A DNA stretch of 64,000 nucleotides from Acetobacter nitrogenifigens DSM 23921 = NBRC 105050 (GTDB lineage Bacteria > Pseudomonadota > Alphaproteobacteria > Acetobacterales > Acetobacteraceae): assembly GCF_000429165.1 (NCBI RefSeq), contig NZ_AUBI01000004.1, positions 248,001-312,000 on the forward strand. The letters run 5' to 3'. The translations under genes were made by a program, and so were the position numbers. Each line of letters starts with the position of its first letter. The first letter of the stretch is position 1. The notes beneath the pieces were generated by a model. That model was not told where the DNA came from. It saw only the letters and a program-made list of their open reading frames with translations, and did no database searches. Shown here piece after piece: positions 41,754-54,432 of this stretch.

Positions 41754-42752
41754 CTACCCTATGACGAACCAGAGGCGAAACAACACCCGCTCGCTGAGCG
41801 ACGCCCTTGTGAGATGCGGAAACCGACGGAGTAAACGCCAGCGCGTCAGTTTCCCGCTGCCCAGCCCGTTCTGCACGGCAGCCAGAATCGCCACAACATG
41901 GGGGTCCAGAAACTTCCGATGCTCCAGCAGATACGAAAGGTTGGAGCGAAAGATGTCCATGAACGCCCCGGGACCCCGCCGGATAGCCGCACAAGCGCGG
42001 CGGCGCCAGGAGGACGGCGCGCCTACGGCATTCTGACCGTGCTGGCGGTATAAAATGACCGGACTCTGATCAATCTCGACCGTGCCGCCTGCGGCTGTGA
42101 CCACCAGATACGCCCACCAGTCATGCATAATGAACGGCGGCGCAGGCTGCATTTCCGTAAGCAACCGACGAGCCCGATCATTCATCATCACCGTGCATCC
42201 GGTTGCGATGTTCTGCGCCAGCGCAGTCAACACGCCGAACGGCTGTGGAATGACGGGGGACAATGCGATCTCTTTCAAAGCCCGATCCGTGAGTATCTGA
42301 CGCGCGCAATAAAGCCTTGGGGCATCGTCCGACGCTCGCGAGAGCCCGTCCACCCCGCGCGCCACCTTTTCCGGCAACCAGACGTCGTCCTGATCTGCAA
42401 ACGCAATGACGCCTCCAGCGGGAGCCGCCTCGAGCAGACGCACGTATGAGTCCATAACGCCCACCCGCTCGCCTGAGCCGACATCGATCTCCACGCAACG
42501 ACCCGCGCCGCGGTTCGCTTGAAAAGACAGCATGATCGCGCGCGATGAATCGGTAGACCCATCGTCGCGCCAGTACAGCGTCCAGTCGCCGTGCGTCTGC
42601 TCGATGAACGAATCCAGTTGCCGGTTCAGAAAAGCTTCGCCGTTATAGAGCGACAGGAGGATGGCGACATGTACGCTCCGGGGATCACGTGTCGCCTGGA
42701 TTACCCTGGGTTTCCACGCCGCTTTATTAACGGACGATACGGCCTCTCCCAT
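41754..42752 (-). CDS. Glycosyltransferase family 2 (rhamnosyltransferase-like)
   Basis: The 332-residue GT-A enzyme has ILLSLYNGEAFLNRQLDSF at the start of the nucleotide-binding fold (about 31-49), the DDGSTDSS motif (about 64-71), the metal-binding IAFADQDDVWLPEKV (about 109-123) and a later HDWW (about 208), the pattern of enzymes that extend glycans with rhamnose or similar sugars. It is the last gene after rmlBACD, so dTDP-L-rhamnose is the likely donor. The ATG at 42752 is preferred over one 26 codons upstream, which would overlap the rmlD coding end. Confidence 0.85.
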   Translation of the reverse strand: MGEAVSSVNKAAWKPRVIQATRDPRSVHVAILLSLYNGEAFLNRQLDSFIEQTHGDWTLYWRDDGSTDSSRAIMLSFQANRGAGRCVEIDVGSGERVGVMDSYVRLLEAAPAGGVIAFADQDDVWLPEKVARGVDGLSRASDDAPRLYCARQILTDRALKEIALSPVIPQPFGVLTALAQNIATGCTVMMNDRARRLLTEMQPAPPFIMHDWWAYLVVTAAGGTVEIDQSPVILYRQHGQNAVGAPSSWRRRACAAIRRGPGAFMDIFRSNLSYLLEHRKFLDPHVVAILAAVQNGLGSGKLTRWRLLRRFPHLTRASLSERVLFRLWFVIG

Positions 42753-42772
42753 ATCGTCCCCCACGTCGGCCT

Positions 42773-43681
42773 TCAGCCTGTGGGCCGGGCGAAAAGCGTT
42801 GCGACGACCGCGGATACGCTCGCGCGCCATTCCGGCATCGAAACGCCGAAAACGCTGGCCAGCTTGCCGTTATCCATACGCGAATCGGCTGGGCGTTTTG
42901 CCGGGGTGGGCCAGTCGCTTGTCGAGATCGCGGCCACCTCCGGCATGGCCTGCCCGTGCGAGGACGCTTCCTGAAGCGCGAACACAGCCAACTGGTGCCA
43001 TGTCGCCTCGCCCGTGCCGCAGGCGTGGTACACGCCCGCATAGTCGTCTTTCCATCCATCACGCTCGATCAGCGCCAGAATGGTCAGAATCGCCGCAGCG
43101 AGATCATCTGAACTCGTGGGATTGCCACGCTGGTCACCCACCACTTTCAGAGCGGGGTTTTTTGCTCCGGCGTTGATCATAGTGCGAACGAAGTTCTTGC
43201 CGTGCGCGGAGTAAACCCATGAAGTCCGCAGGATGATGGCCTGCGGATCCGCCTGCATCACCAGCTCCTCGCCTTCGGCCTTCGTCCGGCCGTAAACGGT
43301 AGCAGGGCTGACAGGATCCGTTTCCAGATAGGGCGAGCCCTTATCTCCCGAAAACACGTAGTCCGTGGAAACGTGAATGAAAGGCAGGCCACGCGCGGCG
43401 CAGGCCGCAGCCAGCAGGGCCGGGCCGTCACGATTGGCGGCTTCCGCCCCCGAGACCTCCGTCTCCGCAAGATCCACCGCCGTCCAGGCCGCCGCATTCA
43501 CCACCGCGGCAGGCTTGACCGCATCGAGGAGGCCCTCGATCGTCTCCGGGCGCTCAAAATCAAAATCGGGGCGCCCGACCCTGTGGACGCGCTGGCCACC
43601 GAGATTCGAGAGCGAGGTCGCGAGCTGACCGCCGCCGCCTGTGACGAGAATGGGACGCGAAGGATCCATGACGATACTCAT
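42773..43681 (-). CDS. rmlD: dTDP-4-dehydrorhamnose reductase RmlD
   Basis: RmlD makes dTDP-L-rhamnose with NAD(P)H. The 302-residue SDR has a Rossmann start ILVTGGGGQLATSL (about 11-24), the HVSTDYVFSGDKG motif (about 103-115), the catalytic Tyr/Lys in YGRTKAEGE (about 128-136), and SWVYSAHGKNFVRTM. The ATG at 43681 overlaps the rmlC stop (ATGA). Another ATG four codons in is possible. It is the final step of the pathway encoded by the four genes. Confidence 0.94.
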   Translation of the reverse strand: MSIVMDPSRPILVTGGGGQLATSLSNLGGQRVHRVGRPDFDFERPETIEGLLDAVKPAAVVNAAAWTAVDLAETEVSGAEAANRDGPALLAAACAARGLPFIHVSTDYVFSGDKGSPYLETDPVSPATVYGRTKAEGEELVMQADPQAIILRTSWVYSAHGKNFVRTMINAGAKNPALKVVGDQRGNPTSSDDLAAAILTILALIERDGWKDDYAGVYHACGTGEATWHQLAVFALQEASSHGQAMPEVAAISTSDWPTPAKRPADSRMDNGKLASVFGVSMPEWRASVSAVVATLFARPTG

Positions 43682-44238
43682 GAGTAGTGGAACCATCCCT
43701 TCGCCGCTGAGAATTCAGGCGCGACGACATCCTTGTCAGACAGCACGGCGTCTTCGGCCCTGATCGGCCACTCTATGCCCAGCTCCGCACTGTTCCAGAT
43801 CACGGCCCGCTCGCAATCCTTGGCGTAGAGCGCCGTGCATTTGTACTGAACCTCGCTATCCTCGACGAGCGTGCAGAAGCCATGCAGAAAACCCGGCGGA
43901 ATCCAGAGCTGGGACCAGTTCTCTGCCGACAACTCCGCCGCCACCCACTTGCCGTAAGTCGGCGATCCGGTGCGCGCATCGACCGCGACATCCCATATCG
44001 CGCCCTTCGTGCAGCGAACGAGCTTTCCTTGCGCATGCGGGGCGAGCTGACAATGAAGCCCGCGCACGACGCCTTTCTGGCGGGACAGGCTCTGGTTGTC
44101 CTGCACAAACGGCAGGTCGATTCCAGCATCGCCCATGCGTTGAGCGTTGTAGGTTTCCGAGAAAAAGCCGCGGCTGTCCGAAAACCGGGGCGGGGTCACC
44201 AGAATGACTTCCGGAATCGCCAGACGTTCGACTTTCAT
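43678..44238 (-). CDS. rmlC: dTDP-4-dehydrorhamnose 3,5-epimerase RmlC
   Basis: RmlC epimerises the 4-keto sugar before reduction by RmlD. The 186-residue cupin has the family start DSRGFFSETYN (about 21-31), FVQDNQSLSRQKGVVRGLHCQ with the catalytic His (about 64), the basic KLVRCTKGAIWDVAVD (about 73-88), and the Tyr-bearing C-terminal region YKCTALYAKD. It is dimer-forming and cytosolic. It lies 80 bases after rmlA and overlaps rmlD by four bases. Confidence 0.94.
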   Translation of the reverse strand: MKVERLAIPEVILVTPPRFSDSRGFFSETYNAQRMGDAGIDLPFVQDNQSLSRQKGVVRGLHCQLAPHAQGKLVRCTKGAIWDVAVDARTGSPTYGKWVAAELSAENWSQLWIPPGFLHGFCTLVEDSEVQYKCTALYAKDCERAVIWNSAELGIEWPIRAEDAVLSDKDVVAPEFSAAKGWFHYS

Positions 44239-44319: not shown

Positions 44320-45225
44320 TCAGGCGTGATTCGCCAACTCAAGCAGAAGGCGTCCGAGTTCCGTTTTTCCCATGCGCCCCGCCTGCGTTCGCAGTTGATC
44401 CACCGAGATATATCCCATCCGGAACGCGACTTCTTCCGGCGATCCGACCAGCATGCCCTGACGCGCCTGAATGGTGTGCACAAACTGACCTGCCTGCATA
44501 AGGCTTTCCGGCAATCCGGCGTCCAGCCACGCACACCCACGCCCCAGACGATCTACGCGCAGCGACCCCTCTTCCAGATAGAAACGATTCAGGTCCGTGA
44601 TTTCCAGTTCGCCGCGCGCAGAAGGCTTCACCGCCTTTGCGAAATCGAGCACTCGGTGGTCGTAGAAATAAAGACCAGTGATGGCCCAGTTCGACTGCGG
44701 ATTGGCCGGCTTCTCTTCGACCGACAGCGCGCGCCCTGTCTCGTCGAACGATACGACTCCGTAACGCTCCGGATCGCGCACCTGATACGCGAACACCGTC
44801 GCGCCTTCAGGTCGGGTGGCGGCGGCGCGCAATGAAACCGACAGGTGATCGGCGAAAATAAGATTATCGCCAAGCGCAAGGCCGCACGGGCAGCCGTCCA
44901 GCCAGTCTCCCGCGATCAGAAACGCCTGCGCGATTCCGTCGGGGCTGGGCTGTTCGCGATACTCGAAGGTGACGCCAAACTGCGAACCATCGCCAAGAAG
45001 ACGCCTGAACTGCGGCAGGTCCGCGGGCGTCGAAATGATCATGATATCGCGAATGCCCGCGAGCATGAGCGTGGTCAGAGGGTAGTAAACCATTGGCTTG
45101 TCATAAACCGGGAGGAGCTGTTTGCTCGCAGCCAGCGTCATCGGATACAGGCGCGTTCCGGAGCCACCCGCCAACAGGATGCCCTTCATGTTAGTCTTTA
45201 CAGTGGGTTGCTGGTGAATGGTCAT
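44320..45225 (-). CDS. rmlA: Glucose-1-phosphate thymidylyltransferase RmlA
   Basis: RmlA starts dTDP-rhamnose synthesis by joining dTTP and glucose-1-phosphate. The 301-residue enzyme has [16 protein letters not shown] (about 14-29), the KPMVYYPL substrate segment, [10 protein letters not shown] (about 117-126) with the Mg-binding Asp, [17 protein letters not shown] (about 155-171), and [13 protein letters not shown] near the C-terminus. Twelve residues before the usual start (ATG at 45189) make this N-terminus long; the ATG at 45189 may be the true start. Confidence 0.94.
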
Positions 45226-45255: not shown

Positions 45256-46308
45256 TTAACCCTGGCCCAGGCGTTGGCCAGTGTAGCGCCGGGCGCGAAT
45301 AGCCTCCCACCACCCACGATTATCCAGATACCACTGGACCGTGCGGCGAATGCCAGACTCGAAATCGTGCTTCGCTTTCCAGCCCAGAGCCGTTTCCGCG
45401 TGCGTAGGATCGATTTCGTATTTGAAATCGTGACCTGGGCGATCCGCAACGTAACGGATCAGGCGCTCGCGGGGTCCCGCCGCATCCGGCGCAAGCTCGT
45501 CAAGGACTGAGCAGATCGTCTTGACCACGTCCAGATTGGTGCGCGGTTGCCGTGCGCCGATCGCGTAGGTTTCGCCCGGTTCGCCGCGCTCCACAGCCTT
45601 GACCAGCGCTTCTGCGTGGTCCTCGACGAACAGCCAGTCGCGGATGTTGTCGCCCTTGCCGTAGACCGGCAGTTCCTTCCCCTCGATGGCGTTAATGGTC
45701 ACCAGCGGAATGAGCTTCTCGGGAAAATGCCAGACGCCGTAGTTATTCGTCGTGTTGGTCACGAAAGTCGGCAGCCCGTAAGTGTGGAACCAGGCGCGCA
45801 CCAGATGATCGGACGCCGCCTTCGATGCGGAGTACGGACTGCGCGGATCGTAAGGAGTGGTTTCCGTAAATGGCGGATCTCCGTGTTCCAGAGCGCCAAA
45901 CACTTCGTCCGTGGAGATATGATGGAAGCGGAACGTCTTCCGCGCCTCGCCGGAAAGCTTCATCCAGTATTTCCGAGCAGATTCAAGCAGCGTGTATGTG
46001 CCAACGACATTGGTCTGGATGAACACGCCGGGACCGTCGATCGACCTGTCCACATGGCTCTCCGCGGCCAAATGCATCACCGCGTCCGGCTCGAACGACG
46101 TGAACAGACCATCAAGCGCGGCGCCGTCGGCAATATCGACATGGGCGAAGCGGTACCGGTCCGATCCGGAAACAGCTTCGACCGTCTCTGACGACGCCGC
46201 ATAGGTCATGGCGTCGACGTTAAGAACCTGATGCGCTGTAGCGCCAATCAGGTGGCGCACGACGGCCGATCCGATGAATCCGCAGCCGCCAGTCAACAGA
46301 ATACGCAT
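45256..46308 (-). CDS. rmlB: dTDP-glucose 4,6-dehydratase RmlB
   Basis: RmlB converts dTDP-glucose to the 4-keto-6-deoxy sugar. The 350-residue extended SDR has [15 protein letters not shown] (about 7-21), [13 protein letters not shown] (about 82-94), [11 protein letters not shown] with catalytic Thr/Asp/Glu (about 130-140), the active Tyr/Lys in [11 protein letters not shown] (about 163-173), and [13 protein letters not shown] (about 190-205). It heads the minus-strand rmlBACD-GT operon. The order is a common one for O-antigen or exopolysaccharide loci. Confidence 0.95.
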
Positions 46309-46457: not shown

Positions 46458-48662
46458 ATGAACTCCACTATGCTTGCGGACCATCAAACCAGCGCGCTGC
46501 TGGCAGCGCTTGAACGCCCCGATCTCGCGGTTATCGCCCGAAACCGGCAGGTCAGCCTCGAGCCCGCGCTCGACCTCCCTTTTCGGCTCGACAGCGCGCT
46601 GAACATCGCGATCGGCGGAGCCGTCGGCGCCGCGAGCGCTCGCCGTCAAGCATTCACACTCCGCCATGCCCTCGAACTCGCGGCGCTGCTGTCGGATGCA
46701 GACGAGCGGTTGACACAGCGCACCATGATTCGCGCCAGCTTCGCCGCCGCGCGCGTCGCAGCGCTTTTTCTCCGCCTTGACGCTTCTGAAGCAGGAGAGC
46801 GCCCCCGATCGCACGCAAGCGACGCCTGGTCAGGCTGGCTCGCGCCCCTTGTCGAGGACACCCCCCCGGACGAGCCGGTTCTGGCGTCCATCTGGCGCAG
46901 CCTGCGCAGCTTTCTCTCGCACGATTTGACAACCACTTCGCAGGCGCCGGGCCACCTGACTGCGGCCGCCGTGACCGACCTGCATTTGTGGCTGCAACGG
47001 TCGTGGCCATTGATCGGTCCCGCTGAAACCCTGATGGCCGCCGGCGGCGACGCACGCCTTCAACTCGACCCGCAGACCGGCCTCAACCATTACGGGTGTT
47101 CGCATCGCCCCCGCCCCTGGGCTGTCACCTTCGCGTCATCCACAGCCTCCTCGGTCTCGGAGCGCGGCTTCGCTGGCGCCGAGACTGCGCGTCTGAACCT
47201 GCAACGGGCGCTCCTCCACGACCGCGCGGACGCGGCCCTATCGGATCTCGCCATTTGGACGCGCGCTTATCTGGCGTCATATTACGACCTGCCCGACGGC
47301 GCCGACGTCATCCTGTCGCCTTCGGGCACAGACTGCGAACTGGCCGCGCTGGCGATCGCAATGCGCGCGAGCGACCACAAGCCGGTGACCAACATCCTGA
47401 TCGCCCCGGAGGAGACCGGAAGCGGCGTGCCGCTCGCCGCCGCAGGACGTCATTTCGCTCTCGACACGGCGCAGGGCGTCGCCGTCGAAAAAGGCGAGCC
47501 TGTCCCCGGCTTCGCCTCCACGATCACGCCCCCCGAAGAACCCGCCGTCGAAGTCCTTACGATCGCCCTACGCGACGCGGACGGCGCGTGCATCCCCACG
47601 GAACAGGTCGCCGAACGCTGCGAACGACTGACCCGCGAAGCAGTCGCCAGAGGGCGCAGGGTTCTGCTGCACCAGCTCGACCTGTCAAAGACCGGCTTGA
47701 AAGCGCCCGACGAGGCGACGCTGGACCGACTGTCACGGACGTTCGGTGATCTGTTCGACGTCGTCGTCGACGCCTGTCAGGCCCGCCTGATGCCAGAACG
47801 CATCGGAAGCTGGGTCGCGGCAGGTCGGGCAGTCATGATCACCGGGTCGAAATTCATGACCGGACCGCCTTTCTGCGGCGCTCTGCTACTGCCGAAGCAA
47901 TGGCGGGCGCGGCTCGAAGGACTGCCGCTGCCAGAAGGACTGGGGTCCTACGCCAGTCATATCGAATGGCCAGATTGCGCCGCAGCTTCATCCTTGTCGA
48001 AGCATGCGAATCACGGCCTGCTTCTACGCTGGAGCGCGGCCATAGCCGAGATGGCCGCTTTCAAAGCGGTCCCGGCCGCCGAAGCGCGCCGTCGTCTGGC
48101 GCTGTTCCTCGACGCCGCGCACGCCGCCATCGAGGAATCCGAGGACGTGCGCCTCGTTCCTCCCCCTGCGCTTGAGCGTCCGCGCATTCCTGACCAGTGG
48201 GACGATCTGGCGACCATCCTGTGTTTTCAGGTCAAGGCGCCGGATCAACCAGACGCCGGGGACGCGAGCACGTCGTTTAGACCGCTCGACGTCGCGGACG
48301 CCCGGCGCGTGTACCACTGGCTGAACGCCGATCTCAGCCCGGCGTTCGCCCCGGACGAGGCCGAACGCCGGTCCGGCCTCGCCGCACGGCAATGCCACAT
48401 CGGACAACCCGTCGCCACGCCGGACGCAGCCCTCGGAGGCGCGCCCGCAGGGGCGCTCAGGCTTTCAGCGGGCGCAAGACTCGTATCGGGCGAACCGTCC
48501 CACGAAGGACTCGGGGTTGATCGACGCATGGCGCGGGAGATCGCGGACGCCCGGACCGTCATCGCCAAAATCGGGCTTATCCGTCGACACTGGTCACGTA
48601 TCGCCGCCGCGAACCCCTCCCCCGGCTATGCTCCGGCGCAACGCGCCGTTACCTTCCCCTGA
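46458..48662 (+). CDS. Large PLP-fold (class V aminotransferase-like) protein of unknown function
   Basis: The 734-residue protein shows a fold-type I PLP core with an about 200-residue N-terminal helical extension. Visible marks are LNHYGCSHRPRP (209-220), VILSPSGTDCELAALAIA (285-302, cofactor phosphate loop), the Asp in VVVDACQARL (about 435-444, normally pairs with the pyridine nitrogen), and the Schiff-base Lys at about 465 in ITGSKFMTGPPFCGA. A C-terminal domain (about 530-734) has no match I know. The ATG at 46458 has a weak ribosome site; ATG 46470 is possible. The substrate is unknown. A phosphatase gene follows after 28 bases, suggesting joint function. Confidence 0.7.
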   Translation: MNSTMLADHQTSALLAALERPDLAVIARNRQVSLEPALDLPFRLDSALNIAIGGAVGAASARRQAFTLRHALELAALLSDADERLTQRTMIRASFAAARVAALFLRLDASEAGERPRSHASDAWSGWLAPLVEDTPPDEPVLASIWRSLRSFLSHDLTTTSQAPGHLTAAAVTDLHLWLQRSWPLIGPAETLMAAGGDARLQLDPQTGLNHYGCSHRPRPWAVTFASSTASSVSERGFAGAETARLNLQRALLHDRADAALSDLAIWTRAYLASYYDLPDGADVILSPSGTDCELAALAIAMRASDHKPVTNILIAPEETGSGVPLAAAGRHFALDTAQGVAVEKGEPVPGFASTITPPEEPAVEVLTIALRDADGACIPTEQVAERCERLTREAVARGRRVLLHQLDLSKTGLKAPDEATLDRLSRTFGDLFDVVVDACQARLMPERIGSWVAAGRAVMITGSKFMTGPPFCGALLLPKQWRARLEGLPLPEGLGSYASHIEWPDCAAASSLSKHANHGLLLRWSAAIAEMAAFKAVPAAEARRRLALFLDAAHAAIEESEDVRLVPPPALERPRIPDQWDDLATILCFQVKAPDQPDAGDASTSFRPLDVADARRVYHWLNADLSPAFAPDEAERRSGLAARQCHIGQPVATPDAALGGAPAGALRLSAGARLVSGEPSHEGLGVDRRMAREIADARTVIAKIGLIRRHWSRIAAANPSPGYAPAQRAVTFP

Positions 48663-48690
48663 TACGCTGAGGATTACGGAGAGAGACCTG

Positions 48691-49389
48691 ATGACCGGAC
48701 AGACGGGCGCTTCCCTGCCGGAGGGACAGAAAAACCACGGCCATTTTCTGGACGCGCCAAAGCTGGAGCCGGGCGTCACCCGCTTCTGGCTGATCCGCCA
48801 CGCGCTGGTGGAGCAAAACGCCCGAGCGCTGCTCTACGGCGCGATGGACGTGCCACTCTGCCCGGACAGCCTGGTGGCGCAGCAACCGATGTACGAGGCT
48901 CTCGCACGGCGACTGCCGCAGGACGCGCTGTGGTATTCTTCTCCACTGTCGAGAGCGCTCCAGACCGCTGAAACCGTGCAGACCGCGGGTTACGGCGAAC
49001 GCGCCATCACGATCGAACCCGGCATTCTGGAACAGGAACTGGGCGAATGGCAGGGCCTGCCGCACCAGGACCTGCCGGAGCGACTGACGCTGCCCGCGCA
49101 CAGGTTCTGGTCCACGTCGGCCGTCGAACGACCGCCGGGCGGCGAAAGCATGGTTGATGTCTGCGCGCGCGTCGGCGCGACGCTGGACAGACTCGCCGAC
49201 CGCAACGCCAGACGCGACATGGTGCTGGTCAGTCACGGCGGCGCGATCCGAGCGGCGCTCTCGCACGCGCTGCGCGTCCACGCCGACACAGCCCTCCACT
49301 TCTCCATCCAGAATCTGTCCCTCACGATTCTTGAGCGACACGACGCGACATGGCGCGTCGTCACCGCAAATGAACTGCCGGGAATCTAG
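48691..49389 (+). CDS. Histidine phosphatase family protein with RHA instead of RHG
   Basis: The 232-residue protein belongs to the phosphoglycerate mutase-like superfamily. The catalytic His is in FWLIRHALVEQN (about 33-44), where the usual RHG is RHA. The other conserved parts are LWYSSPLSRALQTAETV (about 82-98), GILEQELGEWQG (about 112-123), GGESMVDVCARV (about 150-161), and the second catalytic His in LVSHGGAIRAAL (about 179-190). The N-terminal 25 residues are polar. The ATG at 48691 follows GGAGAGAGACCTG. It lies just after the PLP-fold gene and just before tRNA-Gly. Its substrate is unknown. Confidence 0.85.
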   Translation: MTGQTGASLPEGQKNHGHFLDAPKLEPGVTRFWLIRHALVEQNARALLYGAMDVPLCPDSLVAQQPMYEALARRLPQDALWYSSPLSRALQTAETVQTAGYGERAITIEPGILEQELGEWQGLPHQDLPERLTLPAHRFWSTSAVERPPGGESMVDVCARVGATLDRLADRNARRDMVLVSHGGAIRAALSHALRVHADTALHFSIQNLSLTILERHDATWRVVTANELPGI

Positions 49390-49663: not shown

Positions 49664-49843
49664 TCAGGGCGCTGGACCTCGGATTGAGCATCCTAGTTCT
49701 GCGCGAACGGCGATTCGCGGCGGCGCACCTGGACAAGCTAGTTCAGTTCTTTCGACCACCGCGTGATATGCGACGAAGGGGTGGCCCAGTTTGGCCAGCT
49801 CGGTAAGAATATTGGCCACGCCGCTCTGCACGTCCAACTTCAT
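49664..49843 (-). CDS. Small open frame of 59 codons, unrecognised
   Basis: The frame runs ATG (49843) to TGA and begins KLDVQSGVANILTELAKLGH, which reads like natural protein (amphipathic helix), then HPFVAYHAVVE. The second half is Pro/Arg-rich and less convincing. It may be the truncated start of a larger gene, five bases after the GST remnant stop. I do not recognise a family. Confidence 0.35.
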   Translation of the reverse strand: MKLDVQSGVANILTELAKLGHPFVAYHAVVERTELACPGAPPRIAVRAELGCSIRGPAP

Positions 49844-49848
49844 TGATG

Positions 49849-50161
49849 TTAGCCCTCTGGCATGGTTTCGGCTTGTGAGCTCGTCGCATCGAGATTGTCA
49901 AAGGCACCATCGAGCGATCGATTGCGCCGCAGCAGTGCCACCAGATAACGGGAGATGACAGATACCTCGCTGATCGTGGTGCCGTCGTCCAGTTTCCAGA
50001 ACGGGAATAGCGCAGAAGAGATTGAGAACGCGGAACGTGGGCGCGAACCGCCCGGGCTTGGCCAGATCGACCATAACGCTCGGGATCGTCAGCCCTTTCT
50101 CGGTGATGAAGAAGCTTACACGCCATGGATCCTGCGCGGCGGGGTAATGATAAAGCTTCAT
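49849..50161 (-). pseudogene. Glutathione S-transferase remnant, frameshifted and truncated
   Basis: The start KLYHYPAAQDPWRVSFFITE followed by KPGRFAPTFRVLN and IPVLE is a GST N-terminal thioredoxin-like domain. After VLET the reading shifts to a second frame (KLDDGTTISEVSVISRYL), continuing the GST pattern (DDGTxISES-I-RYL), until a TAA at 49849. The all-helical C-terminal domain is missing. So it has at least one frameshift plus truncation. Its ATG overlaps the stop of the upstream remnant by four bases, showing they were once an operon. Confidence 0.75.
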
Positions 50162-50576
50162 GGCAGTGCTGAGCGCGGGTGACGCGAGGGCGGAGACTCT
50201 GGCTGCTCCCGGATGGCCGTGAACATGCGACGGCGAATTAGGCCGCTGACCGGACACATCAGAAACCAATAGGGCGTGAAGCGGCGCTTGACCCGGTTCG
50301 TGACGCAGAACACACGCGTTTCCGTCACCAGCCGCCGGGTGCCGTGTGGGCCCCCCTGGATGGAGAATCCCAGAGCGAGCTGGCAGACGTCTTCATGGCG
50401 AGGGATGAGAAAAGCGTCCGTCGTGGGAATGTCGCACAATCCGTAATCCGCCCGCCAGAACGCACAGATGAGGCCATAGACCAGGGCTGCATCGCCCCGC
50501 CGTTCCAGCAGCGTGAAATCGGTGAGGTCCAGATTCCATTGCCGCGCGTGCTCTTATGGCCAAGCGAGACGCTCAT
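50158..50576 (-). pseudogene. Remnant of SRPBCC-like hypothetical protein
   Basis: An open stretch reads QWNLDLTDFTLLERRG, then VYGLICAFWRADYGLCDI, then GTRRLVTETRVFCVTNRVKR and FTPYWFLMCPVSGLIRRRM. I recall the RxVTETRV...R-FxxYW--I-P-SGLIRR pattern from uncharacterised SRPBCC-like proteins. The frame is interrupted upstream by TAA (50554-50556) with a different frame before it, and the N-terminal half is missing. It therefore looks decayed. Confidence 0.5.
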
Positions 50577-51171: not shown

Positions 51172-54100
51172 CTAAGGAGACACTCCCGCGAGAGCCGTTG
51201 CGCTCCACGAGGCCACCATGTTCGTTCCATCGCATTGTTCATAACGACGCGCCACTACTTCCCGCTCGCCGCTCTGGTCGAGTTTTTCACCAGCATAAAT
51301 TCGAACCGTATGGCAAAGCCGCCGGCGTCCGTGGACGCCATCGGCGTCCGAGTCGACGAGCGACTTCGCAGCAAGCTGTGCCACGATGTCGCTCACCTCG
51401 ATCATCCTGACCTCGCCGAAGCCAGCGACCTGACGTGCCGCGTCGAAGGTAAAAGGCCCGTTGAACACAGCTAAGCGCCGTAGCACGATTCGCTCCTTGA
51501 GGCTAAGCGCCTTAAAGCTCCAATCTAAAGTCGCTGCCAACGAGACATGCCTCGACGAAGCGCCATTACATTTCTGCATTTGGAGCAGGAACGGACTATC
51601 CACGAGTTGTGCAAGCGCGGGCAGTTCGAACACGTCCATACGGGCCGCCGCCAACTCGATCGCCAGCGGACAACCGTCGAGGCGCCGACAAATAAATGCG
51701 ACGTAGGGTGCAGAGCCGTTCGTGAACTGGAAGTTGGGATTGCTGATCTTGGCACGTTCGACAAAGAGTTCCACTGCGGCGAACTCTATTGCGCGGATAG
51801 CGGTCAGACCGTCCATTTCCGATGCGACGGGAAGGCCCTTCAGGCGCCACCGATGCTCATCCGCGGCGCGCAGCGGCTCCCGGCTCGTGCAGAGGAGACG
51901 GATGTTGGAACTGATCAACAGGATATTTTCGACGATGGGCGCGACACGTTCGATTACATGATCGCAGCCATCCACTACGACCAGCATCCGCCGAGAGTCG
52001 AGGAAGCGCTCCAAATTCATCCATGGGTCGTCCCCCGACGCGCTGACACCCAGGTCCCGGAGGACTGCGCCCAGAAGGTCATCGCGCGTCCTGACGGGAG
52101 CTAGGTCCACGAAGGCGACGTAGTCAACATATCCGCGCTCTAATGTTTTACGGGCGACGCATTGCGCTACTGTCGTCTTGCCCATTCCGCCGGCGCCAAC
52201 CACGCTGATGAGACGGTTGGTCCGGAGATCCTCGACCAGATCTGCGACCAAATCTGTCCGGCCGACGACATCCGGGGTTGGAGCCGGCGTCCATCGCCGG
52301 ACCGCCGTAGGAGGACTGGGCGAAACGGGTTCACAAAAACGATACCCACGACGCGGTACAGTTGTCACGTACGTCCGTTCACAGCCTGCCTTGGCCAGCG
52401 CCCGCCGAAGCGCCGCAACTGCATGTCGGAGATTTGAGTCGTCGACGTTAAGCGAGCCCCATACGCTTTCGATCAGCGTTAAATTGTCGATTGTCTCGCC
52501 GGGGCGGTCGACCAAGATTTCGAGGACCTTATAGGACGGATCACCAAGCCGGACCGGCTTGTCAGAGCAATAGAGTTGTCGGTGCGAGCGGTTCAAGCGG
52601 AATGGGCCGAAGGTGACGTCCGTCATTCGTTGACCATCAAGCTGCCCGGCAGTACCCGCAGCCTGCGCCTGACTCTCGTGCGGAATCATGGAAACTGCTC
52701 TACGATGAGTGGAGAATTCGCGCCGGATTGCCGCTGAGGTTCCCAGATCCTGCAGCGTCGTTGTAAAGCGATTAGTATTCCGCAGACGATTTATCGCCTC
52801 TGTATAATGCCCGAGACGGGTCCACACCGGAAGCGACGCCAATGTCAGCTCCAGGGTGAGTTTCGACAGGTGCGCTCGACTCGCTAACCAATCGAGCGCG
52901 CAGCCAATCTCGTCGATCATTTGCACACAGAAATTCAGCCACTTCGACCCTTTTTGCTCCGGCGAAGCAGCCATCTTCCGGAGAGTGTCCGCGACATACC
53001 GGGCGTGGCGGAGAGCGAAGGTGTTAGTTTCGCCAGCCTCTTCCAGCTTCTCCAGCGCGTAGGCCCTTGTAGTCCCAAGAAAAATATACTGACCGCGGGC
53101 TTCATCAGGGCCGGCACTCAGCAGTGACTTCGCGCCGAGGCTCTCCACGAGAGTGCTCACTTCCGATTCCGGAAGTTGGCCGTCGGAAACGACATCTCGC
53201 ACCTTTTCAGCGGTAATGATTCCACAAAAAATCGAGAGACGGCGAAGGAGTATCCGCTGGCGCGAAGAGAGCGCGTCATGGCTCCAATCAAGCGTCGCCC
53301 GAAGCGTGCGATGCCGAAGCGGCGCAGCGCTACGTCCAGGCATATGCAAGCGAAAATAGTCGGTCAGTTCGGATGCGAACTCCGTCACATCGAATCCATC
53401 AAGGCGCCCCGCCGCTAGCTCTATCGCCAGCGGAAGGCCGTCGAGCCGACGGCAGATACTCGCCACCTGGACGACGTTCGTATCGGTCAATTCGAAGCGG
53501 CTGGACGCTCTTCGCGCTCGGTCTACAAACAGCTCCACCGCTGAATAGTGGAGTGCCTCGTCGACGGTGAGTGGAGCATAGGGCGCTGGCGTCGAAAGGG
53601 GAGCGAGTCGCCATACCCGCTCGCCTGGAGCGCTGAGTGGTTCTCTGCTGGTCGCCAAGACCGCGAGCCCCGGTGCGCTGTCGAGAAGGCGCGGCAATTC
53701 AGCCCTGATTACCGGAAGCACTGTCTCGCAACCGTCGAGCAGCAGCAATCGACTTTGATGCGCGACTGCCGCCCGAAGAGCGTCCCAGCCGTCGTCACAT
53801 TTACCGGTATGATCAAGAGCCGAACGTATAACGTGAGGTACCAACATCGGATCATGCAGCATCGAAAAGTCGACGAATGTCACCGCATCGAATCGCTGTG
53901 CATTGGCGATTTGACTCGCTGTCAACAGAGCGACAGTCGTTTTGCCGATACCTCCTGGGCCAACAATGGTGACCAGCCTTCGCTGCAGATATTCGGCTAC
54001 CAAGGCAGCAACAACGGCGTCTCGCCCGATAACTCGTGCAGGGGGGCGTGGTAAGCCCCTCAGCGGTGACGTTCCAGTGTCGAGCGCGACGTCGACCGCT

Positions 54101-54432
54101 AGACGGTAACCTCGACCGGGATCCGTCTCAATGTAGTTCCGACCGGAGCCGTCCTCACGCAGTACCTTGCGCACGGCGGTCATTGCCGTGCGGAGACTCG
54201 TCTCTTCGATGGCGAAGTTTGGCCAGGCTCGGTCGAACAGAGCCTGCTTGTCAACGAACTCTCCGGCGTTCTCAACCAGAAGCTGTAGGAGGTCGTAGGC
54301 GCGACCGCCCAACTGGACCACGCGTTCGCCGAGCAGGAGTTGCTTGCGGGCGGGTACGATCCGAAACGGACCGAATGTCGCCTGCCAGCCAGGCAGCAGG
54401 GCACGGCGCGGATGCTCTGCCTTGTCGGTCAT
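51172..54432 (-). CDS. Tandem winged-helix / STAND-ATPase regulator (duplicated architecture)
   Basis: The 1086-residue protein contains two copies of an OmpR-type winged helix followed by a STAND/AP-ATPase. Copy 1: wHTH about 18-112 (ATFGPFRIVPARKQLLLGE), Walker A GPGGIGKTT (158-166), Walker B LLLLDGCE (229-236), GLPLAIELAA (332-341). Copy 2 begins at about 603 with VTFGPFRLNRSHRQLYCSD: Walker A GAGGMGKTT (746-754), Walker B LVVVDGCD (about 817-824), CPLAIELAAARMD. Neither copy keeps the long TPR tail usual for such regulators (normally 900 or more residues per copy). Its ATG overlaps the stop of the DMT exporter gene, so it is coupled to it. The signal it senses is unknown. Confidence 0.82.
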   Translation of the reverse strand: MTDKAEHPRRALLPGWQATFGPFRIVPARKQLLLGERVVQLGGRAYDLLQLLVENAGEFVDKQALFDRAWPNFAIEETSLRTAMTAVRKVLREDGSGRNYIETDPGRGYRLAVDVALDTGTSPLRGLPRPPARVIGRDAVVAALVAEYLQRRLVTIVGPGGIGKTTVALLTASQIANAQRFDAVTFVDFSMLHDPMLVPHVIRSALDHTGKCDDGWDALRAAVAHQSRLLLLDGCETVLPVIRAELPRLLDSAPGLAVLATSREPLSAPGERVWRLAPLSTPAPYAPLTVDEALHYSAVELFVDRARRASSRFELTDTNVVQVASICRRLDGLPLAIELAAGRLDGFDVTEFASELTDYFRLHMPGRSAAPLRHRTLRATLDWSHDALSSRQRILLRRLSIFCGIITAEKVRDVVSDGQLPESEVSTLVESLGAKSLLSAGPDEARGQYIFLGTTRAYALEKLEEAGETNTFALRHARYVADTLRKMAASPEQKGSKWLNFCVQMIDEIGCALDWLASRAHLSKLTLELTLASLPVWTRLGHYTEAINRLRNTNRFTTTLQDLGTSAAIRREFSTHRRAVSMIPHESQAQAAGTAGQLDGQRMTDVTFGPFRLNRSHRQLYCSDKPVRLGDPSYKVLEILVDRPGETIDNLTLIESVWGSLNVDDSNLRHAVAALRRALAKAGCERTYVTTVPRRGYRFCEPVSPSPPTAVRRWTPAPTPDVVGRTDLVADLVEDLRTNRLISVVGAGGMGKTTVAQCVARKTLERGYVDYVAFVDLAPVRTRDDLLGAVLRDLGVSASGDDPWMNLERFLDSRRMLVVVDGCDHVIERVAPIVENILLISSNIRLLCTSREPLRAADEHRWRLKGLPVASEMDGLTAIRAIEFAAVELFVERAKISNPNFQFTNGSAPYVAFICRRLDGCPLAIELAAARMDVFELPALAQLVDSPFLLQMQKCNGASSRHVSLAATLDWSFKALSLKERIVLRRLAVFNGPFTFDAARQVAGFGEVRMIEVSDIVAQLAAKSLVDSDADGVHGRRRLCHTVRIYAGEKLDQSGEREVVARRYEQCDGTNMVASWSATALAGVSP

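Follow-up and report, generated by a model that had tools for sequence, protein, structure and literature searches.

A class-V-like PLP enzyme family that co-occurs in Acetobacteraceae with a group-II decarboxylase

By comparing a PLP enzyme gene (c0) of the window, a 64,000-nucleotide stretch of Acetobacter nitrogenifigens DNA, with its homologues in other bacteria, we found that its presence in Acetobacteraceae goes along with that of a gene for a group-II (PF00282-type) PLP decarboxylase (DC). On balance, we favour the view that c0 is an uncharacterised class-V-like PLP enzyme acting in the same pathway as DC. The likely partner of c0 would thus be a gene on another contig, since both the co-occurrence and the gene cassettes of distant genomes point there.

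The c0 family and its fold

The 92% identity of c0 to its A. sacchari counterpart, a dN of 0.041 against a dS of 0.258 and homologues in other genomes indicate that c0 is a real coding gene. Homologues were found in 35 of the 61 genomes searched, our own counted, and a wider survey of c0 status found the gene in 127 of 299 genomes. Translation probably starts at the ATG of Met5 (Table 1), from which many homologues align. In line with the sequence-only reading, which had called the protein unfamiliar, no characterised enzyme with the same domains turned up: searches of the 734-aa protein against Pfam, NCBIfam and PHROGs came back empty at E ≤ 1, as did one against PDB sequences at E ≤ 10. A PDB profile search returned four rows, every one with an E above 1, and a scan of viral contigs gave no relative. 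Also, c0 missed the curated cut-off of Aminotran_5 (PF00266) and is not among the nine PF00266 places of its own genome. Among the matches listed, 20 were rhizobial plasmid records, of which 13 are labelled "hypothetical protein", 6 are unannotated and 1 has nothing under the match. c0 belongs to a new family, of which we found no description, with an already known fold.

Table 1. Features of the c0 region, in window positions
Feature	Position	Strand	Remark
c0, PLP enzyme gene, 734 codons	46458..48662	+	likely start ATG 46470 (Met5)
N-terminal ~190-residue extension, main Acetobacteraceae branch	46458..47027	+	not covered by outside-family matches
PLP fold-type I, class-V-like core, residues about 205-715	47070..48602	+	structural alignment of model
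SGTD loop, residues 289-292	47322..47333	+	alignment
Lys411	47688..47690	+	kept in 77/78 aligned sequences
D438-x-x-Q441, expected PLP N1 / O3' contacts	47769..47780	+	78/78; roles by class-V analogy
Lys465, expected Schiff-base lysine	47850..47852	+	77/78; role by analogy
Arg668, expected alpha-carboxylate ligand	48459..48461	+	78/78; role by analogy
c1, histidine phosphatase, 232 aa from ATG 48691	48691..49389	+	PF00300, 1.7e-44; RHA at 48796-48804
Context feature	45256..46308	-	
rmlA/polB, glucose-1-phosphate thymidylyltransferase	44320..45225	-	context
rmlC/polC, dTDP-4-dehydrorhamnose 3,5-epimerase	43678..44238	-	context
rmlD/polD, dTDP-4-dehydrorhamnose reductase	42773..43696	-	context
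Family 2 glycosyltransferase, polE place in pol cluster	41754..42830	-	polE equation by position only

The structural model of c0, built from four sequences (pLDDT 65.3, under 50 at residues 464-471; pTM 0.73), indicates that its core is a PLP fold-type I enzyme closest to class V. In the VIA comparison the best rows were class V enzymes aligned over residues 220-717, with NifS (Z 18.9, 352 residues, 4.5 Å) and 2-aminoethylphosphonate:pyruvate aminotransferase (Z 18.7) among them, and Z was at least 8 for all the 1000 chains that Foldseek ranked highest. Foldseek itself placed a group-II decarboxylase, DfoJ, in the top row (3.8e-8) with other fold-type I classes mixed in, and therefore the assignment to fold type I is more secure than that to class V, which we take as the nearest class from the VIA ranking and weak sequence alignments. 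When c0 was aligned with hhalign to single class-V proteins of its own genome, the probability was 85% for a NifS-like one, whereas the remaining four and DC all stayed below 7%. The SPSGTDCE loop and the lysine near residue 465 pointed out from the letters were confirmed as SGTD at residues 289-292 and Lys465. Both ends of about 200 residues had been described as matching nothing. This stands for the ~190-residue N-terminus, as the first 200 residues folded alone (3 sequences, pLDDT 58.5) had no PDB match under E 0.001. It does not stand for the C-terminal ~200 residues, which are part of the PLP fold rather than a separate domain, since they hold the invariant R668 and align with the core to solved PLP enzymes.

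Approximately residues 205-715 fold like the NifS/IscS/SufS desulfurases and the cystine/sulfoxide C-S lyases (VIA Z about 17-19), and the D-x-x-Q and S-K segments of SufS align, weakly, with c0. These enzymes differ from c0 by their low identity to it (9-16%), by the long inserts of c0, by its lack of an Aminotran_5 match at E ≤ 1 and, for SufS, by the Thr320 that c0 has at what is in SufS the second His-bearing position. Moreover, unlike desulfurases, c0 lacks a conserved cysteine before the carboxylate-binding arginine: no such column reaches 90% in the alignment of 78 sequences, and C646 is Val in L033, a locus outside Acetobacteraceae. Sulfur transfer is therefore unlikely. The 2-aminoethylphosphonate and serine-glyoxylate aminotransferases share the fold as well (Z about 17-18.7), while Lys411 is an additional conserved residue of c0. 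Its SKTG segment aligns with TSTT of a homologue from its own genome, at a probability of 0.3% that makes it only a lead. These aminotransferases carry a transaminase-type motif where c0 has D-x-x-Q, and the latter favours a putative lyase/desulfurase-like active site rather than that of a plain transaminase.

Decarboxylase and ligase genes accompanying c0

Outside Acetobacteraceae, we compared 25 c0 loci, several of them close kin: 20 genome loci drawn from 25 c0-positive genomes (five near relatives omitted), L033 and 4 of 33 plasmid records. DC lies in the c0 locus in 18 of them, in several families, and by raw neighbour count 16 hold both DC and a gene that we read, from motifs in the alignment, as a putative ATP-grasp-like ligase (AG), mostly contiguously. 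In L144, DC and AG are fused in one 884-aa ORF. Eight further loci have another amide-bond-forming gene near c0, be it a dual ATP-grasp gene (L153, L154), a D-Ala-ligase-like gene (L147, L155, L156), a RimK-like gene (L152) or NRPS genes that abut c0 (L034, L036), and L037 has none of these partner genes at the c0 locus. L033 encodes a 2OG-Fe dioxygenase (PF10014) in addition. For the AG of L163, neither Pfam (E ≤ 0.001) nor NCBIfam (E ≤ 0.01) gave a match. By searching the literature for the gene combination we found no description of a DC, c0 and AG cassette among the papers listed, and the available text of PMC8939145 contains no PLP or decarboxylase term. Flagellar genes adjoin the g328 cassettes.

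Within Acetobacteraceae, L168 (genome G308) is the only locus where DC was seen next to c0; the DC match there starts immediately after the stop codon of c0, at the edge of a contig. DC usually lies elsewhere in the genome, and in our own genome it is found on another contig (G000:C1:45532-46974). We compared 40 c0-positive genomes, picked by hand from the 127 with the aim of genus spread, and 40 c0-negative genomes taken roughly in handle order. Two of the former (G132, G317) carry a stop inside c0; 16 of the latter are explicitly listed as negative and 24 were assumed so, being absent among the matches listed. In these hand-picked sets, where ancestry is common, DC was present in 39 of the c0-positive against 5 of the c0-negative genomes (2 of the 16 listed negatives), and by genus in 23 of 24 against 1 of 14. 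DC occurs without c0 in three g32 genomes, one g1 and one g48 genome, and c0 without DC in G278; within genus g45, both c0-positive and none of the four c0-negative genomes have DC. The comparison genes did not give the same pattern: in c0-positive against c0-negative genomes we counted 39 against 36 for the neighbouring histidine phosphatase gene (c1), 29 against 19 for CobT and 16 against 4 for AG. CobT was chosen as comparison gene afterwards, having first been run to test a CobC reading of c1, and is not a designed control.

These patterns make it unlikely that c0 is an ordinary class-V aminotransferase/lyase with a generic amino-acid role that drifted past profile detection, associated with DC through lineage and genome size only. 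The fold and motifs of c0 are indeed class-V-like, phylogeny could inflate the association, and c0 and DC can be lost jointly as genomes shrink, with no functional link between them, but such a history accounts poorly for DC genes inside c0 loci of several families and for the behaviour of the comparison genes. We consider it improbable that c0 is a tailoring enzyme editing an amide after its formation on a carrier- or peptide-tethered, NRPS- or ATP-grasp-made substrate: NRPS genes abut c0 in two loci and ATP-grasp-like genes occur elsewhere, but no carrier protein was seen in annotated cassettes and most Acetobacteraceae copies of c0 have no adjoining ligase.

AG was rejected as a constant Acetobacteraceae partner. 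It is missing from 24 of the 40 c0-positive genomes, solitary in the 15 regions compared and, by coordinates, side by side with DC in G111, which has no c0; the DC-AG pair can therefore do without c0. The cassette DC stays below the cut-off of TIGR03812, the profile of the MfnA tyrosine decarboxylase (90.7 and 83.4 bits, cut-off 299.4). Of the 21 DC regions compared, most have DC convergent to genes that we take to be CobS/CobT-like; this arrangement is uninformative on DC function.

The neighbouring phosphatase and the rhamnose genes

The gene behind c0 had been read as a phosphatase with RHA in place of RHG, and its PF00300 match and motif bear this out (Table 1). RHA is invariant among 11 aligned c1 sequences and common in the histidine phosphatase superfamily. 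The c1 start at ATG 48691, 28 bp past the c0 stop, is more plausible than TTG 48517. In 34 same-genus loci, our own window included, and 20 loci of other Acetobacteraceae genera, c1 adjoins c0 in 32 and 10 cases, respectively, and the short gaps suggest that both genes are probably co-transcribed. Conservation of the pair thus holds for adjacency but not for dependence, as c1 is matched in 36 of the 40 genomes without c0 (with an internal stop in G067 and G080; the match of G199 is split), which argues against c1 as a dedicated partner. In addition, none of the 25 loci outside the family gave a phosphatase-profile match. The pairing is mostly one of neighbourhood, and c1 is not a dependent partner. 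Two other roles for c1 were rejected. First, as an alpha-ribazole phosphatase CobC it scored 107.7 bits with TIGR03162 against a cut-off of 162.9, and c1 is present in 75 of the 80 genomes and CobT in 48, CobT being kept in 4 of the 5 c1-negative genomes. Second, the serine pathway has no need of c1 in place of SerB, since our own genome has a SerB match over cut-off.

The tie to dTDP-rhamnose genes is not supported: rmlB adjoins c0, divergently, in 22 of 34 same-genus and 7 of 20 other loci, and was not seen beside it in 12 and 13, some of them at contig edges. As to an amino-sugar role, the top structural rows were NifS and 2-aminoethylphosphonate transaminase, sugar aminotransferases are absent among the best 50 rows of Foldseek and of VIA, and no sugar-aminotransferase profile of Pfam or NCBIfam matched c0 at E ≤ 1. 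Hence, despite the frequent c0-c1 adjacency and the link of the pol operon to capsule and pellicle given in the available text of PMC5553594, a two-step pathway in which c0 and c1 act on a phosphorylated amino sugar or lipid in connection with the pol operon is very doubtful.

A proposed pathway and its meaning

In our reading, c0 would perform one PLP-dependent step in an amine/amide biosynthesis not yet described, whose chemistry we infer. The earlier idea of a candidate new pathway is supported, as is that of an uncharacterised PLP family. K465 would carry PLP, R668 would bind an amino-acid substrate by its alpha-carboxylate, and R200, R372, K411, R443 and R524, which are conserved basic residues too, may bind a second acidic group. 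The c0 enzyme would make or remodel an amino acid, DC would produce an amine from one of the pathway's amino acids, and a ligase (ATP-grasp, or NRPS in some rhizobia) would join the parts via an amide bond. Acetic acid bacteria mostly lack the cassette ligase, so that the c0-DC pair may end there at the free amine or use another ligase.

The cassettes have a logic in common with the methanofuran pathway, that is a PLP decarboxylase, a ligase and a PLP transaminase, represented there by the tyrosine decarboxylase MfnA, the tyramine-glutamate ligase MfnD and MfnC, according to the available part of PMC8141765; the cassette DC differs from MfnA by its TIGR03812 match below cut-off. Fungal E-64 clusters, in the available text of PMC12568646, combine a 2OG oxygenase, an ATP-grasp enzyme, a PLP decarboxylase that is dispensable in a heterologous host and an amide bond synthetase. 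They resemble the c0 cassettes in uniting a decarboxylase with an ATP-grasp amide ligase, to which L033 adds its dioxygenase, and differ in being fungal and in that none of their four described genes is of the class-V PLP kind. More tentatively, DC, a class-V-like PLP enzyme and an ATP-grasp amide ligase may form an undescribed pathway, widespread in Proteobacteria, that leads to an amine-capped amide metabolite or cofactor, of which acetic acid bacteria would keep both PLP enzymes as an unlinked, near-constant pair, one of them with a new N-terminal domain.

A family without a Pfam or NCBIfam profile thereby gains a testable partner and a pathway logic, and the obvious neighbour c1, although probably co-transcribed, need not be the functional partner of c0. 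Should the pathway be confirmed, its metabolite could be sought in acetic acid bacteria as a simple host, with food and cellulose strains among them and with tools for knock-outs at hand.

Fold and conserved residues of the PLP protein c0

The protein encoded by the PLP gene c0 matched no family in Pfam, NCBIfam or PHROGs at E≤1, and a search of PDB sequences up to E≤10 was likewise empty. By using an AlphaFold model built from four input sequences (pTM 0.73, mean pLDDT 65.3), we found that the best 50 Foldseek rows were all PLP fold-type I enzymes, the group-II lysine decarboxylase DfoJ (3.8e-8) coming first, followed by a mixture of class I, III and V enzymes; TM-scores were 0.27-0.35 by query length and at most 0.58 by target length. 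A second structural aligner, run on the chains ranked by Foldseek, placed class V first (NifS, Z 18.9, 352 residues, 4.5 A) and gave Z 18.7 for 2-aminoethylphosphonate aminotransferase. The PLP core proposed in a sequence-only reading was borne out by both aligners, and K465 is conserved. That reading had also left about 200 residues at each end unmatched, which holds for the N-terminal part but not for the C-terminal one, since the top class V alignments span residues 220-717 and so include it in the PLP fold. Modelled alone, the N-terminal stretch reached a pLDDT of 58.5 with no structural match under E 0.001. Because rhizobial homologues (479-514 aa) lack these ~190 residues, and matches outside the family in class- and phylum-wide searches start at profile position 154-169, sequence comparison assigns the stretch to the main Acetobacteraceae branch, plus Acidisoma (L032).

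A codon check located SGTD at 289-292, DACQ at 438-441, K465 and R668. In an alignment of 78 sequences, the window's copy included, D198, R200, T229, S289, G321, D438, Q441, R443, G463, S464, F466, R524 and R668 were invariant, while K465 and K411 were each kept in 77. The sole exception for both is the second c0 copy of genome G157 (L169), which is probably catalytically dead because Arg replaces Lys465 and Glu replaces Lys411. The Acetobacter sacchari copy (L031) is 92% identical to c0 (dN 0.041, dS 0.258). Since many homologues align from residue 5, translation of c0 probably starts at ATG 46470.

Coordinates of the features (DC, PF00282-type group-II PLP decarboxylase; AG, ATP-grasp-like ligase; L and G, fetched loci and genomes)
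Feature	Locus	Position	Strand	Remarks
rmlB, rmlA, rmlC, rmlD, glycosyltransferase	window	41754-46308		gene content of pol (capsule/pellicle) cluster
c0, PLP enzyme ORF	window	46458-48662	+	734 residues
c1, histidine phosphatase (PF00300)	window	48691-49389	+	Pfam; contains RHA; most likely start ATG 48691, 28 bp past c0 stop
Two overlapping short ORFs	window	49743-50269	-	presumably remnants of a broken glutathione-S-transferase-like gene
Tandem ORF	window	51172-54432	-	1086 aa
Own-genome DC		G000:C1:45532-46974		
DC and AG matches		G111:C4:332650-335312		side by side, same strand
Second c0 copy	L169	9041-11218	-	genome G157
Permuted ATP-grasp, alpha-E	L184	13304-15915	+	
DC-AG fusion	L144	10623-13277	-	single 884-aa ORF
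Double ATP-grasp protein	L154	4938-7772	-	944 aa
Extended AG	L035	10395-12107	+	
2OG-Fe dioxygenase (PF10014)	L033	5544-6296	-	Thiobacillus MAG

Genomic neighbours and a probable partner of c0 in Acetobacteraceae

The sequence-only reading had paired c0 with the phosphatase c1, next to dTDP-rhamnose genes, as a candidate new pathway. The RHA that it had noticed in c1 was invariant in 11/11 aligned sequences. Adjacency is also real, as a phosphatase directly follows c0 in 32/34 same-genus loci (own window counted) and in 10/20 other Acetobacteraceae loci. As a functional pairing, however, it was probably wrong: the phosphatase matched in 39/40 Acetobacteraceae genomes with c0 and in 36/40 without it (p 0.36). 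In the small genome G011, c0 is gone, yet the phosphatase still precedes its usual downstream genes, read from sequence as TldD and TyrS. An assignment of c1 as CobC was ruled out by score and by co-occurrence with CobT. A divergent rmlB adjoins c0 in 22/34 and 7/20 of the same loci; polABCDE is described in PMC5553594 and PMC5050591.

In these 80 genomes, hand-picked and compared with p-values that ignore ancestry and therefore give direction rather than exact strength, a DC was present in 39/40 with c0 versus 5/40 without (Fisher 7e-16), compared with 29/40 versus 19/40 for CobT (p 0.04) and 16/40 versus 4/40 for AG (p 0.004). Per genus, DC occurred in 23/24 with c0 and 1/14 without (3e-8), and within the three genera holding both states in 12/12 and 2/8 genomes. 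Counter-cases are G278, with c0 and no DC, and five genomes with DC and no c0, including G111, where DC and AG matches lie together. DC is mostly unlinked to c0 in this family; in L168 (genome G308), a DC match starts directly after the c0 stop, at the contig edge. DC is the probable partner of c0.

Near the own-genome DC (L184) lie genes that we take to encode an ATP-grasp protein with circular permutation and an alpha-E protein, and an alpha-E-like gene presumably also lies near c0 in L174. Elsewhere in the window, the halves of a 1086-aa ORF are 38% identical over ~458 residues, both with response-regulator-type DNA-binding matches; from its domains, we take it to be a winged-helix and NTPase-like regulator, twice in tandem in one frame.

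Cassettes outside the family

Among 25 out-of-family loci (L033-L037, L144-L163; several close kin), DC and AG were both present in 16, where they mostly adjoin c0 directly and the gene order differs between loci; they lie ~2.5 kb from c0 in L145 and are fused in L144. AG matched no Pfam or NCBIfam family, and we read it as ATP-grasp-like because of its motifs. In L153 and L154, DC is accompanied by a protein that combines two ATP-grasp domains with one acylphosphatase domain, as annotated in L154 and extended to L153 by cluster membership. L147, L155 and L156 each carry a divergent D-Ala-ligase-like gene, which was annotated in L155 and recognised in the other two by cluster membership. In L152, the gene after c0 has a RimK-related ligase match (55 bits versus a cut-off of 314), and in L034 and L036 NRPS genes lie upstream of c0. 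The fetched stretch of L037 held no DC, AG, other ligase or NRPS gene. An amide-bond-forming gene thus occurred within the fetched stretch of 24/25 loci, a raw count without random-gene baseline in which several loci are close kin.

In L154, the double ATP-grasp protein adjoins DC and c0; its acylphosphatase domain is C-terminal and its second ATP-grasp domain falls near cyanophycin and N-acetylglutaminylglutamine synthetases, below cut-off. The AG of L035 has ~150 additional C-terminal residues, presumably a candidate C39-type peptidase-like domain. A dioxygenase adjoins the cassette in L033. In three genomes of genus g328 (L146, L151, L163), the cassette adjoins flagellar genes; Pfam matches mark those of L163 as FlgE- and FlgK-like, and those of the other two were assigned through the same clusters.

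Distribution and proposed pathway

We found c0 in 35/61 genomes of a first search (own genome counted; all one genus), 127/299 across the order, 6/385 of a class sample and 25/398 of a phylum sample, two of the positives in each of these last samples lying inside the family. Plasmid-borne c0 accounted for 33 records, which come exclusively from Rhizobium, Sinorhizobium or Neorhizobium. In the c0 tree, which was built by a quick method, rooted at the midpoint and has L033 on a long branch, a group of 53 rows (SH-aLRT 84) unites 52 Acetobacteraceae rows with Acidisoma, and cassette-type rows spread over several deep branches (4 changes), which is in line with an old cassette association.

Beside the fold, residues, linkage and co-occurrence observed for c0, a mechanism can be proposed in which K465 would form the internal aldimine, D438 and Q441 would contact the PLP ring and R668 would bind the alpha-carboxylate. 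The excess of conserved basic residues suggests a substrate that is acidic or phosphorylated. The D-x-x-Q motif resembles desulfurases and lyases in a weak alignment, but the desulfurase cysteine is not conserved among the 78 sequences. DC scored highest with diaminobutyrate and aspartate decarboxylases, far below cut-off. The likely pathway logic would lead from amino acid to amine to amide.

The nearest known logics are methanofuran MfnA/MfnD/MfnC, where MfnC is a transaminase (PMC8141765), and fungal E-64 clusters, whose genes as described in passages of PMC12568646 include no class-V PLP gene. Our literature search, with most subscription papers beyond its reach, found no account of the cassette. 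We conclude that c0 represents a genuine PLP family, as yet uncharacterised and with a known fold, and is best read as acting in an undescribed amide-forming pathway.
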